Source of the DNA: Methanomassiliicoccales archaeon LGM-DZ1 | GTDB taxonomy: Archaea; Thermoplasmatota; Thermoplasmata; Methanomassiliicoccales; Methanomethylophilaceae | Direction of reading: 5' to 3' | DNA length: 64,000 bases | Assembly: GCA_030168595.1 (NCBI GenBank) | Contig: CP115556.1 | Location: forward strand, 558,001-622,000 | Part shown: positions 653-10,811 of the stretch, one piece after another | Numbering within the stretch: position 1 is the stretch's first letter | How the letters are laid out: each line of letters starts with the position of its first letter | Translations under genes and position numbers: made by a program | Notes under the pieces: generated by a model | The model's input: the letters and a program-made list of their open reading frames with translations, nothing else | Told to the model about the DNA's origin: nothing | Databases searched by the model: none

Positions 653-1465
653 TTAAAGCCTCTCTGCGAACCCGCGCTTGAGGCGGCGGAACACCGCATA
701 GCCCAGGACCAATGCGAATAACGCCAGCAGCAGGCACATCGAGATGACCCATGCGTCCGGCGGTTCCCCGAAGTACACTGCGCTGTGAAGCGCTTCGACA
801 AAATAGGTGAACGGATTGATCCAGATGAGAGCATTCAGCAGGCCGGTGGCCTCATCGGCGAAGAAGTACATGGGGGTCATGAAGAAGAACACCATGCTTA
901 TCGAGTTCAGAACGTACTGGACATCGCGGGAGTACACGGTCAGGGAAGAGAACAGGAACACGTACCCCGTGACGAAGATCAGCTCCAGGATAAGAACCGC
1001 CGGAACGAAGAGCATGGAGACCCAATCGAGCGAGAAACCAGTCGCGGCAATCAGGATGAGGCTGACCGAGTAACCGATCAGCATTATCAGGAACGTGCTA
1101 AGGGTCTGGGCGAACACCAGGATCTCCCTGGGGAAGTAGATCTTCTTGACCATGCCCGAGTTGCCGGTGATCGCAGATGCCCCTCCCGTCAGGTTCTGGG
1201 TCATGAAGGAGAACGGGAACATCGCCGACAGGACGTAGACCATGAAATCAGAAATCGCCGACTTGCGGATCTCCGTGAACACGACGTAGTAGACGCAGAT
1301 CATCACCATGGGGATGATGAAGTTCCAGGCGAATCCCAGAGCGGAGTTGCGATAACGGCCGAACAGGTTGTTGTAAACAAGGGAATGCAGGATGCTGCGG
1401 GAAGCGTACAGCTCGCGCAGATGATGCCTGGCCCCTCTGATGACCTTGTTTCCTCCGCTCTTCAT
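653..1465 (-). CDS. Polysaccharide ABC transporter permease (Wzm type, ABC-2 family)
   Basis: Membrane subunit of a surface-polysaccharide exporter, 270 aa with about six hydrophobic segments (for example around residues 35-60, 70-95, 115-145 and 175-195) and a basic C-terminus ending in RRLKRGFAERL. The N-terminal stretch LHSLVYNNLFGRYRNSALGFAW matches the coupling region of ABC-2 exporters of the Wzm/TagG group. Length is normal for the family. The start at 1465 is supported by a TATA-like box about 24-35 bp upstream. It is the first gene of a two-gene unit with the ATPase and is divergent from glf, so both belong to a polysaccharide locus. Confidence 0.9.
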   Translation of the reverse strand: MKSGGNKVIRGARHHLRELYASRSILHSLVYNNLFGRYRNSALGFAWNFIIPMVMICVYYVVFTEIRKSAISDFMVYVLSAMFPFSFMTQNLTGGASAITGNSGMVKKIYFPREILVFAQTLSTFLIMLIGYSVSLILIAATGFSLDWVSMLFVPAVLILELIFVTGYVFLFSSLTVYSRDVQYVLNSISMVFFFMTPMYFFADEATGLLNALIWINPFTYFVEALHSAVYFGEPPDAWVISMCLLLALFALVLGYAVFRRLKRGFAERL

Positions 1466-1595: not shown

Positions 1596-2816
1596 ATGAG
1601 CGGACGCAGGTACCTGGTGGTCGGAGCCGGGATATCGGGATCGACCATTGCAAGGCTGATGGCCGGCAGGGAGCCAGATTCTAGCATCACGGTCATCGAT
1701 TCATCTGACCGCATCGCCGGAGCCTGCAGCGACCGCATCCAGGACGGGATTGACGTCCAGGACCTTGGTCCGCACATCCTGCATACAGACGACGCCGAGG
1801 TATGGGGATTCCTCTCCCGCTTCACCGATTTCAATGCCTACCTGCACCGCGTGAAGGGAATCATTGGGGGGTCCGAGGTCCCGCTCCCGTTCAACACCGA
1901 CAGCCTCCGCATCTGCTTCCCCCCGACTGCCGCCGGCGAGATCGAGAAGAAGCTCGTGAACGCCTACGGGGTCGGAGCACGCGTCCCCGTAGATGAACTG
2001 AAGAAGAGCGATGACAGGGACATTAGGACGCTCGCTGCATTCCTCGAGAGGAGATGCACGCCGGATGGCGGGGGGCAGGTGCCTGCCGGTCTCTGCGGGG
2101 CGGCCGACCGCGGGATCGTGATAGTCTCCCGCGAACCTGGATGCTACGGCGAGAAGTACCAGGGAGTGCCCGTCGGGGCTTTCAACAACACCCGCAGGGG
2201 AACGGTGCTTGGAGGATATTCTGCGATGGTACGCAACATGCTCGACATGCCGAACGTGAAGGTATGCCTCGGGACTCCGTTCGACCCTGATTCCGCCGAT
2301 GACTATGACAGGATATTCTACACAGGCAGCGCCGACGGGCTGCTGGATTACCGTTTCGGACGCCTCCCGTATCGTTCAAGGCGCTTCGTCTTCGAGACCC
2401 ATCTCAGGGAGCATGTTCTGGACAACGCCGTCATCGAATACCCTGAGAATTATGACTTCGAGAGAATCCACGAGTTCAAGTACTACCTGGGCACGAAGAC
2501 CCAGACCACCATGACTGCGAAAGAGTACCCTGACGAGTACGTCCCCGGCAAGAACGAACCGTGCTTCACCATCCCGTCAGCTGAGAGCGTGGCCCTTCAC
2601 AGAAAGTATGCAGAGGCGGCCGCTTCGGAATTCCCTAACCTGAAACTCCTGGGAAGGCTTGGAGACTACAGGGACTACAGCATCGGCGAGGCGGTCTCCA
2701 GGTCCATCTCAGTGTTCAGGGAGGAGTTCGGACCTGAGCTCCCGGAGATCAGGAACCACAAATCGAGCAGGACCGCCGGCAGCAAGACGCCCACCGTGAT
2801 GTACCTGGGGTATTGA
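1596..2816 (+). CDS. glf: UDP-galactopyranose mutase
   Basis: Flavoenzyme converting UDP-galactopyranose to UDP-galactofuranose for surface glycans. Start chosen at ATG 1596 (protein begins MSGRRYLVVGAG) because a TATA box sits 27 bp upstream; the frame is open back to 1500. About 406 aa. The FAD-binding motif VVGAGISGSTIAR is at the N-terminus, followed by VIDSSDRIAGACSD and DLGPHILHTDD, the hallmark glf region; KYQGVPVGAFN is near residue 190, and the C-terminal LLGRLGDYRDYSIGEAV matches the second FAD-contact region. The middle segment (about residues 155-185) looks divergent from bacterial enzymes. It abuts galE by one base, consistent with UDP-Gal supply by the next enzyme. Confidence 0.9.
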   Translation: MSGRRYLVVGAGISGSTIARLMAGREPDSSITVIDSSDRIAGACSDRIQDGIDVQDLGPHILHTDDAEVWGFLSRFTDFNAYLHRVKGIIGGSEVPLPFNTDSLRICFPPTAAGEIEKKLVNAYGVGARVPVDELKKSDDRDIRTLAAFLERRCTPDGGGQVPAGLCGAADRGIVIVSREPGCYGEKYQGVPVGAFNNTRRGTVLGGYSAMVRNMLDMPNVKVCLGTPFDPDSADDYDRIFYTGSADGLLDYRFGRLPYRSRRFVFETHLREHVLDNAVIEYPENYDFERIHEFKYYLGTKTQTTMTAKEYPDEYVPGKNEPCFTIPSAESVALHRKYAEAAASEFPNLKLLGRLGDYRDYSIGEAVSRSISVFREEFGPELPEIRNHKSSRTAGSKTPTVMYLGY

Positions 2817-2817
2817 G

Positions 2818-3864
2818 ATGGCAGGCTCAAACGTGAAGAAGGCGCCGACCGGGACCGTGATGGTCACCGGAGGCTGCGGATACATCGGCTCCCACTGCGT
2901 CCTGGCACTTCTCGAGAAAGGCTATGATGTGGTATCTTTCGACAATTTCTCAACAGGGCACAGGGAGATCTCAGACAGGATCACATCATTCTCCGACGAT
3001 TTAGCAGGAAGATACCTGGGGGCTTTCGAAGGCGACCTTAACAGCCCATCTGATCTGGAGATGGCGTTCTCCGAGCACCATCCGTCAGCCGTCATCCACT
3101 TCGCGGCCCTCTCCCGCGTCGAGGAATCCATGCAGGACCCGGCGAGATACTACAGGAACAACGTGTGCGGGACGATGAACCTCCTGGATGCGATGAGGGA
3201 GAACCGCATCGACAAGATCGTGTTCTCGAGCACCGCCGCGACCTACGGGGAGCCGAACTACGTGCCCATCGACGAGAAGCATCCCTAGGTTCCCATCAAC
3301 CCATACGGCAACACCAAACTGGCCATCGAGCGCATGATGGACGACTACGGGAAGGCCTACGGGATCCGCAGCGTCAGGCTCAGGTACTTCAACGTCGCCG
3401 GGGCCGATTCGAGGCTGAGGACGGGGGAGTGGCACGCCAATGAGTCGCACCTGATCCCCAGGATACTGATCTCAGTCTCTTCCGGAAAGCCGTTCAGGTT
3501 CTTCGGGACCGACTACCCCACACCTGACGGGACCTGCATAAGAGACTATGTCAACGTAGAGGACCTTGCGGACGCTCACCTTCTGGCACTGTCCCATCTG
3601 GAGAAAGGCGGTGACACTGATTTCTTCAACCTCGGCACGGGCGAGGGTTCCTCCGTGAAGAACGTGTACGACGCATGCTGCAGGGTCCTGGGCATCGACA
3701 TCCCCTGCACATTCGAGGCCCGCCGTCCCGGGGATCCCGCAAAACTGGTGGCCGACAGCTCGAAGGCCAGGAATGTCCTAGGATGGAGGCCCTCCAGGAC
3801 GCTGGATGACAGCATCCGCACTGCGTGGGAATGGGAGAAGAAGAGAAGGGAACTTTTCAGCTGA
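2818..3864 (+). CDS. galE: UDP-glucose 4-epimerase containing an in-frame UAG codon
   Basis: SDR-family enzyme interconverting UDP-glucose and UDP-galactose, the substrate for Glf next door. Frame 2818-3864 is continuous (348 residues, normal GalE length) except for one TAG at 3286-3288, codon 157. Before it: VTGGCGYIGSHC (NAD site), DNFSTGH, HFAALSRVEESM and FSSTAATYG. After it: VPINPYGNTKLAIE with the catalytic YxxxK (Y163/K167), RYFNVAGAD and the C-terminal NLGTGEGSSV. A product ending at the TAG would lack the catalytic Tyr and Lys. Since no gene in this window uses TAG as terminator, readthrough or pyrrolysine insertion is the favoured reading; a nonsense-mutation pseudogene or sequencing error is the alternative. 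Confidence 0.85.
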
Positions 3865-4280: not shown

Positions 4281-5327
4281 TCACCGTTTCTCGCCCCTGC
4301 CCTTGAACACGCCCTTTATCCTCGACTTGATGTCGGTGATGGGGTCGACGTTGCAGGGATCGACACTGTGCAGAGAGGCCAGATATAGAGACACATGGTC
4401 CCCAAACATGATGCCGTAGATCATCCGCTCCAGCTGGGTATCGCCGCGGGTCTCGATGTACTTCGGTTCCAGCCCGCGGGTCTTCAACAGGTCCGACGTT
4501 GCGTGGACGATGTCGTTGATGTACTCCAGAGAATCATCGTTGATGATGATCGGGACGAAATCGAACCTCTTGTTGTCATCGTACCAGCCGACGACCTCGT
4601 TGTGATTGAACTCAGGCATCACTCCGGAGAATGCCACCATCTTCGAGTTCTCGTTGAGCTGGTTCTTCATCCTGACGGCAATCGACTCCATGTCCGGCGT
4701 CCCATAGACAACTGGTACCTTCCCATCGACGGCTTCTGCCAGCCTCCAGGCTTCCCCTTCGCCGTCCTCGATGTCCTCCTGATAGCGGCGGAGACGTGGG
4801 ATCATCCCTCTGATCTCATCCCTCACGGCGGGTCCGCCGGCATCCTCGATGATGGCCCCCAGAGTGCCGATGAACCACCCGATGGCGCTGCGAGGCTGCA
4901 TCTTCTTGCCGTTAATCATTACCAATGGATTGCCGTTCTTCCTGGTAAGCTCCAGAAGATCGCCGCCATGTGTCACCGAGACCACATCGAGGCCCATGTC
5001 GATGGCCTTCTCGTACATGTAGAGCGTCTCAGCCGTGTTGCCCGAGTAACTGCAGGCCACCAGCAGGGTGTTCTCCTTGTTGATCCACGAAGGCAGCGAC
5101 ATAGTCTTCACGATGTCCACCGACACCGGAGACTTGTAGTACATCGAATCAGCGTAGATCCTCCCGCCGATAGCAGATGCGCCCATTCCGCAGATGAGGA
5201 TGTGAGAATACTTTCTCTTAAGACCTGTCTTAGAGGAAACGGCCTCTTCGAGGTCGTCAACGAAACCCGAGACCTCCGACGACATTTCGTTGAGTTGCTC
5301 AGTTGAAAAATCCATCTTGCGGGCCAT
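4281..5327 (-). CDS. Bifunctional phosphoglucose/phosphomannose isomerase
   Basis: Interconverts glucose-6-P, mannose-6-P and fructose-6-P, feeding nucleotide-sugar synthesis. The SIS fold shows ILICGMGASAIGGR (residues about 45-58) and the phosphate-binding ACSYSGNTAETL; the C-terminal part has NHNEVVGW and the late histidine region. About 348 aa, typical of archaeal PGI/PMI. Three ATGs lie close together (5333, 5327, 5315); 5327 is preferred because a GAGG ribosome site lies 6 nt before it, whereas it touches the 5333 ATG directly. A TATA-like AT-rich box lies near 5361-5370. Monocistronic and convergent with galE. Confidence 0.9.
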   Translation of the reverse strand: MARKMDFSTEQLNEMSSEVSGFVDDLEEAVSSKTGLKRKYSHILICGMGASAIGGRIYADSMYYKSPVSVDIVKTMSLPSWINKENTLLVACSYSGNTAETLYMYEKAIDMGLDVVSVTHGGDLLELTRKNGNPLVMINGKKMQPRSAIGWFIGTLGAIIEDAGGPAVRDEIRGMIPRLRRYQEDIEDGEGEAWRLAEAVDGKVPVVYGTPDMESIAVRMKNQLNENSKMVAFSGVMPEFNHNEVVGWYDDNKRFDFVPIIINDDSLEYINDIVHATSDLLKTRGLEPKYIETRGDTQLERMIYGIMFGDHVSLYLASLHSVDPCNVDPITDIKSRIKGVFKGRGEKR

Positions 5328-5454
5328 AGCCATCCTCTAATTATAAGTGATAATGAGTACCTTAATAAAACGTTTATCTAACTTAATAAGGTTATTCGAA
5401 ACTCGCATTCGATCTCAGTATTTGCAGGGACATGGCCAGAGACCCACCCTAGAA

Positions 5455-10187: not shown

Positions 10188-10811
10188 ATGAAGGTGATGT
10201 TGGTCAACGGCAGCCCCCATGAGCACGGATGCACCTACACCGCGCTGAAGGAGGCCGCCGACGCTCTGGAGAAGAACGGGATAGAAGCGGAGATCATGTG
10301 GATCGGCAAGGATGCCATGTACGGCTGCTCCGCCTGCGGATACTGCAAGAGGAGCGGGAAAGGCTGCATCAGGAAGGATTCGGTCAACGACGTCCTTGAA
10401 AGGATCGATTCCATCGACGGCTTCGTGTTCGGGGCGCCGGTCTACTACTCCGGGCCCGACGGCCAGCTCACGGCGTGGATGGACAGGCTGTTCTATGCCA
10501 GCGTCGGCAGGATGGCCGGGAAGGTGGCCGCCTCCGTCGTGTCCTGCCGCAGAGGGGGCGCCAGCGCCGCCTTCGAGCGCCTCAACCAGTACTACCTCAT
10601 GAGCAGGATGATCGTCCCCGGGGCGACCTACTGGAACCAGGTCCACGGGGACACCCCGGACGAGGTCCGCCAGGACCTCGAGGGGATGCAGAACATGCGC
10701 ATCCTCGCCGGGTACATCGCCTGGATCCTCAAGTGCATCGACGCCGGCAGGAAGGCGGGCGTGCCCGCGCCGCCCTCTGAGGCGAAGGTCTTCACGAACT
10801 TCATACGCTGA
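10188..10811 (+). CDS. Flavodoxin-family NAD(P)H-dependent oxidoreductase, iron-sulfur flavoprotein-like
   Basis: Second flavodoxin-fold protein in tandem (207 aa). FMN loop MLVNGSPHEHGCTYTAL, cysteine set CSACGYCKRSGKGC (residues about 47-60), and VFGAPVYYSGPDGQLTAWMDRLF. It also has ISF-type features such as VVSCRRGGASAAFERL and NQYYLMSRM. In methanogens such proteins pass electrons from ferredoxin. It shares motif order with the preceding gene but is clearly diverged, so the pair is an old duplication or two separate family members. A GC-rich hairpin terminator follows. Confidence 0.85.
   Translation: MKVMLVNGSPHEHGCTYTALKEAADALEKNGIEAEIMWIGKDAMYGCSACGYCKRSGKGCIRKDSVNDVLERIDSIDGFVFGAPVYYSGPDGQLTAWMDRLFYASVGRMAGKVAASVVSCRRGGASAAFERLNQYYLMSRMIVPGATYWNQVHGDTPDEVRQDLEGMQNMRILAGYIAWILKCIDAGRKAGVPAPPSEAKVFTNFIR

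Follow-up and report, generated by a model that had tools for sequence, protein, structure and literature searches.

A UDP-glucose 4-epimerase gene with an in-frame TAG codon, predicted to be read as pyrrolysine, in a Methanomassiliicoccales archaeon

The glf-galE locus and its in-frame TAG

The window analysed here is a stretch of 64,000 nucleotides (C1:558001-622000) of a single-contig genome of 1,768,094 bases that is 99.68% complete. The features that concern us lie near its beginning and are listed below with their positions in the window.

653..1465, minus strand: ABC-2 type permease similar to the galactan exporter Wzm/RfbD, transcribed divergently from glf (NF050109, 70.4 bits, below the curated cut-off)
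1596..2816, plus strand: glf, UDP-galactopyranose mutase (TIGR00031, E=2.4e-68, below the curated cut-off, profile positions 4-375 of 378; alternative upstream start at 1500)
2818..3864, plus strand: galE, UDP-glucose 4-epimerase with one internal TAG, 348 residues on read-through (TIGR01179; AlphaFold)
3286..3288, plus strand: in-frame TAG at codon 157, predicted pyrrolysine; CAG (Gln) in 13 close orthologues (translation, orthologue alignment)
3304..3318, plus strand: codons of Tyr163 (3304-3306) to Lys167 (3316-3318), start of the catalytic helix, intact past the TAG (translation, alignment, model)
4281..5333, minus strand: bifunctional phosphoglucose/phosphomannose isomerase, intact, convergent with galE (profile search)

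Translation of the galE frame (2818-3864, plus strand) gave 349 codons whose sole internal stop is the TAG of codon 157 (3286-3288), located between ...DEKHP and VPINPYGNTK... and six residues ahead of the catalytic Tyr163. The first-pass annotation had described a single galE frame broken by this TAG only, with both catalytic residues and the C-terminal half intact behind it. Both statements were confirmed: the read-through protein matched TIGR01179 over its full length and free of frameshifts (394.9 bits for a cut-off of 262.3, profile positions 2-330 of 332), and no second lesion was present downstream of the TAG. The GxxGxxG dinucleotide motif is found as GGCGYIG at residues 18-24 and the Tyr-x-x-x-Lys pair as Y163 and K167; Y163, G164 and K167, all in frame past the TAG, are invariant in an alignment of 21 distant GalEs. 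Indeed, each of the 55 columns invariant in these distant proteins is kept, 23 before the TAG and 32 after it, and the 191 codons downstream of the TAG scored as coding by themselves in our coding model. The coding sequence is thus conserved on both sides of the TAG, as expected of a gene for a pyrrolysine-containing protein, and the frame behind the TAG goes beyond what chance would give. When the positions invariant in the 13 close orthologues were considered, galE deviated at 2 of 51 before the TAG and at 8 of 95 after it, which exceeds most of the orthologues. These deviations are often residues found in other GalEs and look like the mark of a longer branch, a resemblance that is no proof of constraint. 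The gene is present in single copy, the next galE-like sequence of the genome being only 23% identical, so that a second intact galE, a possibility raised in the first-pass annotation, did not turn up. Translation restarting at the next ATG (3334) would leave out both Y163 and K167, and the C-terminal part alone would therefore not be a normal enzyme.

The glf gene immediately precedes galE on the same strand and ends two bases before the galE start, an arrangement that recurs in three related genomes (G010, G055 and G066). A compensated frameshift in glf was considered and rejected since the profile match spans the full length of the gene. Another genome of the same species lacks the glf-galE block here, meaning that the locus is variable, and carries a different galE (62% identity, CAG at the codon) elsewhere on the same contig. 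A close galE occurs in 27 of the 102 genomes of the family, many relatives having none. The pair is likely to supply UDP-galactofuranose for a surface glycan.

Codon 157 in relatives and in the structural model

Aligning the galE orthologues at this codon, as the first-pass annotation had proposed, gave CAG in each of the eight full-length genus orthologues and in all 13 members of the close orthologue set. As CAG is one base away from TAG, a single C to T transition explains TAG157. Among the 26 other sequences of the family that cover the site, residue 157 is Gln in 22, Leu in 2 and Lys in 2, and the codon is never TAG. Outside the family the residue is mostly Leu, and GalE relatives as a whole carry Q, L, K, I, M, V, T and others. 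The TAG was thus not conserved, being present in this genome only among the galE sequences compared; such conservation is no requirement for neutral cases such as that of Thg1 (see below).

The AlphaFold model of GalE, computed with Gln entered at the TAG, had a mean pLDDT of 89.5, and its best PDB matches were UDP-glucose 4-epimerases, with 8wxk first (TM 0.91 by query length). In this model residue 157 lies in a well-predicted coil just ahead of the catalytic helix, which starts at residue 162. At the galE TAG, a search for a PYLIS-type element gave no Rfam match and an RNA fold no better than shuffles; this element is not obligatory for a pyrrolysine-containing protein.

Pyrrolysine machinery and TAG usage in the genome

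The first-pass annotation had pointed to the pyl genes as the thing to look for, and pylT, pylS, pylB, pylC and pylD are all present. The pylS match was above the curated cut-off, and pylT, pylS, pylC and pylD form a cluster. Directly upstream of pylS is pylT (L033 9697-9767), a tRNA-Pyl-like gene with a CTA (CUA) anticodon, which was called by neither ARAGORN nor Rfam and which we identified by its CTCTAAA anticodon-loop sequence, its position and its CUA anticodon. Since pylB is outside this cluster it was suspected to be absent, a suspicion rejected when the gene was found at C1:663176-664183, about 1 Mb along the contig from the cluster. With the complete set the organism is equipped to make and insert pyrrolysine. 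The methyltransferase genes mtmB, mtbB and mttB each contain one in-frame TAG, followed in mtbB by a match to Rfam PYLIS_2 and in mttB by a match to PYLIS_3. Judged by its gene content, the genome belongs to a Methanomassiliicoccales-like methanogen that decodes UAG as Pyl. A degenerate second copy of mtmB lies between mtmB and pylT (L033:9145-9640), with a partial tRNA-Pyl-like stretch ahead of the intact pylT. We also observed that none of the start codons ATG, GTG and TTG occurs shortly before the conserved N-terminus of pylC (L033:10700-10730), where translation might begin at a CTG near 10712.

Gene ends were called with a self-trained coding model, at first over 459 kb and then over 859 kb, roughly half the genome. 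Among the 741 stop-terminated genes of the 859 kb, TGA was used 672 times, TAA 57 times and TAG 12 times. Ten of these 12 TAG ends run on in frame for at least 90 codons; the extension is strongly coding in nine and weakly coding, with a score of 3.5, in the tenth, a TetR-like gene. A control on TGA and TAA ends gave no information on this point, because the coding extensions there appeared to be separate downstream genes. The two remaining TAG ends belong to a weak ORF of 68 residues, at L197 6201, and to a CMP-sugar synthetase-like gene, at L040 8411, with a TGA one codon later. With the extended cases set aside, the share of TAG among stops in the sample is at most 0.3%, to be compared with the 1.6% of M. 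alvus and the 11% of M. luminyensis given in the relevant passages of PMC4153887. No more than two genes of the sample, short or ambiguous ones, may still end at TAG, and some termination at this codon is possible. On these counts UAG is hardly used as a stop in this genome, which suggests constitutive decoding, and is most likely mainly a sense codon. In the CMP-sugar synthetase-like gene (L040:7674-8417, plus strand), the order TAG, one codon, TGA leaves the TAG as either a sense codon or part of a double stop.

Genes interrupted by TAG include those for TiaS, an FBP aldolase/phosphatase, a PHP-domain protein, an amidohydrolase-like protein, a TetR-like regulator, a transposase and a large repeat protein. 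Two of them were compared with the second genome of the species.

L045:15756-17066, plus strand: TiaS (tRNA-Ile2 agmatinylcytidine synthetase), TAG at codon 59 of the called frame
L181:17724-18863 (G000:C1:47724-48863), minus strand: FBP aldolase/phosphatase, TAG at codon 28

The TiaS TAG is common to the second genome of the species (98% protein identity), and other genus members have Lys or Gln at this position. Past the TAG the two same-species genomes differ by 14 synonymous and 7 nonsynonymous codons in 377. In the FBP aldolase/phosphatase, codon 28 is ATG in the same-species genome and in the other genus members examined. The change from ATG to TAG needs two base changes (AT to TA), and the protein is otherwise 99% identical. 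Comparison with the same-species genome past this TAG gave 23 synonymous and 2 nonsynonymous differences; these may predate the TAG, and the case for read-through is consequently weaker than for TiaS. Searches of the genome with either protein gave one match each, and that both genes are dead is improbable. Two further observations were made: a very large, repeat-rich, surface-like protein (L183:8152-19998, plus strand) has two in-frame TAG codons and is still open at the end of its stretch, and a glycosyltransferase-like gene (L049:18847-19305, plus strand) is interrupted by TAG at codon 34 and seems to be frameshifted beyond it.

Whether TAG has been wholly reassigned to pyrrolysine in this species, with core metabolism (GalE, FBP aldolase/phosphatase, TiaS) now dependent on it, is a possibility that we regard as real, if somewhat less than even; complete reassignment is not proven by a sample of about half of the genome that includes two ambiguous TAG ends. 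If true, the organism could not dispense with its pyl genes even when no methylamines are available. Kivenson and colleagues reportedly described in Science in 2025 archaea that read all TAG codons as pyrrolysine (the 'Pyl code'), with TAG stops near-absent and many TAG-containing genes; both of these traits are seen here too.

Interpretation of the galE TAG and comparison with known pyrrolysine proteins

From the comparisons above we infer read-through of galE, pyrrolysine as residue 157, a near-neutral change and a role in glycan synthesis. Very probably, galE encodes a working GalE in which UAG157 is decoded as pyrrolysine; the replacement would be near-neutral, at a loop position that varies in the family, and would take place without a recoding element. 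A single C to T transition would have made the ancestral CAG (Gln157) into TAG. In this lineage tRNA-Pyl(CUA) charged by PylS would compete very successfully at UAG, few or no genes still needing a TAG stop. Because tRNA-Pyl would outcompete termination, TAG157 is expected to act as a missense change from Gln to Pyl and not as a knock-out. The full-length GalE would then make UDP-galactose for the mutase, the product of glf immediately upstream, leading to UDP-galactofuranose for the surface glycan. The first-pass annotation had proposed pyrrolysine, or another read-through residue, and pyrrolysine insertion holds as the best reading, given the pyl set, the rarity of TAG as a stop, the TAG codons in other housekeeping genes and the single-copy, undecayed galE. 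Any special role for a pyrrolysine next to the active site is not supported, since the position is a variable loop with CAG one base away, the TAG is present in one genome and a PYLIS-like element was not found there.

If instead the TAG were a recent nonsense mutation, galE would be a young pseudogene with an inactive 156-residue fragment, in a variable surface-polysaccharide locus that tolerates loss. The absence of the block from the same place in the same-species genome, the patchy occurrence of close galE genes in the family and the larger deviation of galE from its close orthologues fit this explanation. We nevertheless consider it unlikely, as TAG is nearly always a sense codon in this genome and should not by itself kill a gene, galE shows neither a second lesion nor the loss of any distant-invariant residue, and the upstream glf spans its whole profile. 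A mere error of sequencing or assembly, with CAG read as TAG, would agree with an ancestral codon one base away; it is made very improbable by the single-contig genome, by its many independent TAG-containing genes and by the TiaS TAG confirmed in a second genome.

The pyrrolysine could also have been retained for a purpose. Read-through depends on the Pyl pool, and GalE output might therefore be tied to the pyrrolysine supply of methylamine metabolism, coupling the surface glycan to the growth substrate; in the passages concerned, Borrel 2014 (PMC4153887) argued that TAG in core genes would make Pyl essential. We give such regulated read-through little chance, since neither PYLIS nor another RNA element was found at the site, no other galE examined shares the TAG, and the avoidance of TAG as a stop suggests constitutive decoding. 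A chemically active pyrrolysine in or near the active site, making GalE an adapted, non-neutral Pyl enzyme, could be imagined from the position of residue 157, six residues from Tyr163 and beside the catalytic helix. A catalytic role is not supported, however, and this scenario appears hardly credible: the residue varies among GalE relatives, the catalytic set is already complete, and Pyl157 is predicted in one genome only.

The preferred reading, pyrrolysine insertion by a near-neutral change, has precedents. In the same genome MtmB, MtbB and MttB have an in-frame TAG read as Pyl, as is predicted for galE; there the Pyl is catalytic and conserved, with a PYLIS match in two of the three, whereas galE has neither the conservation nor such an element. 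Closer to our case is the tRNA-His guanylyltransferase Thg1 of Methanosarcina acetivorans, whose in-frame amber is translatable as Pyl, dispensable for activity and ascribed to neutral evolution (Heinemann 2009, as cited in passages of PMC2933860). As in galE, the amber is reported there in one species only; Thg1 was studied experimentally, whereas Pyl in galE is a prediction. By analogy, near-neutral gain of Pyl in galE is most likely the process described for Thg1 in those passages and argued for M. alvus in parts of PMC4153887. Predicted Pyl or in-frame amber genes of this kind, outside the methyltransferases, number 16 in Borrel et al. 2014 (PMC4153887) and 46 in ISO4-H5 (PMC5011839), according to the sections concerned. 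'Ca. Methanomethylophilus alvus' and ISO4-H5, of the same order, are alike in that the same sections describe sporadic in-frame TAG codons in housekeeping genes with sense codons in the homologues, and very few TAG stops; galE is not named in the main-text passages of these two papers on Pyl proteins. It is thus a plausible further case of the predicted Pyl proteins already described in close relatives.

A sugar-nucleotide enzyme, a tRNA-modifying enzyme and the gluconeogenic FBP aldolase/phosphatase hereby join the predicted pyrrolysine proteins outside methylamine metabolism. The FBP aldolase/phosphatase (TAG versus ATG within the species) and TiaS (TAG in both genomes) offer natural test pairs for the origin and tolerance of Pyl replacements. 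Standard gene callers will cut such TAG-containing genes short and report false pseudogenes.
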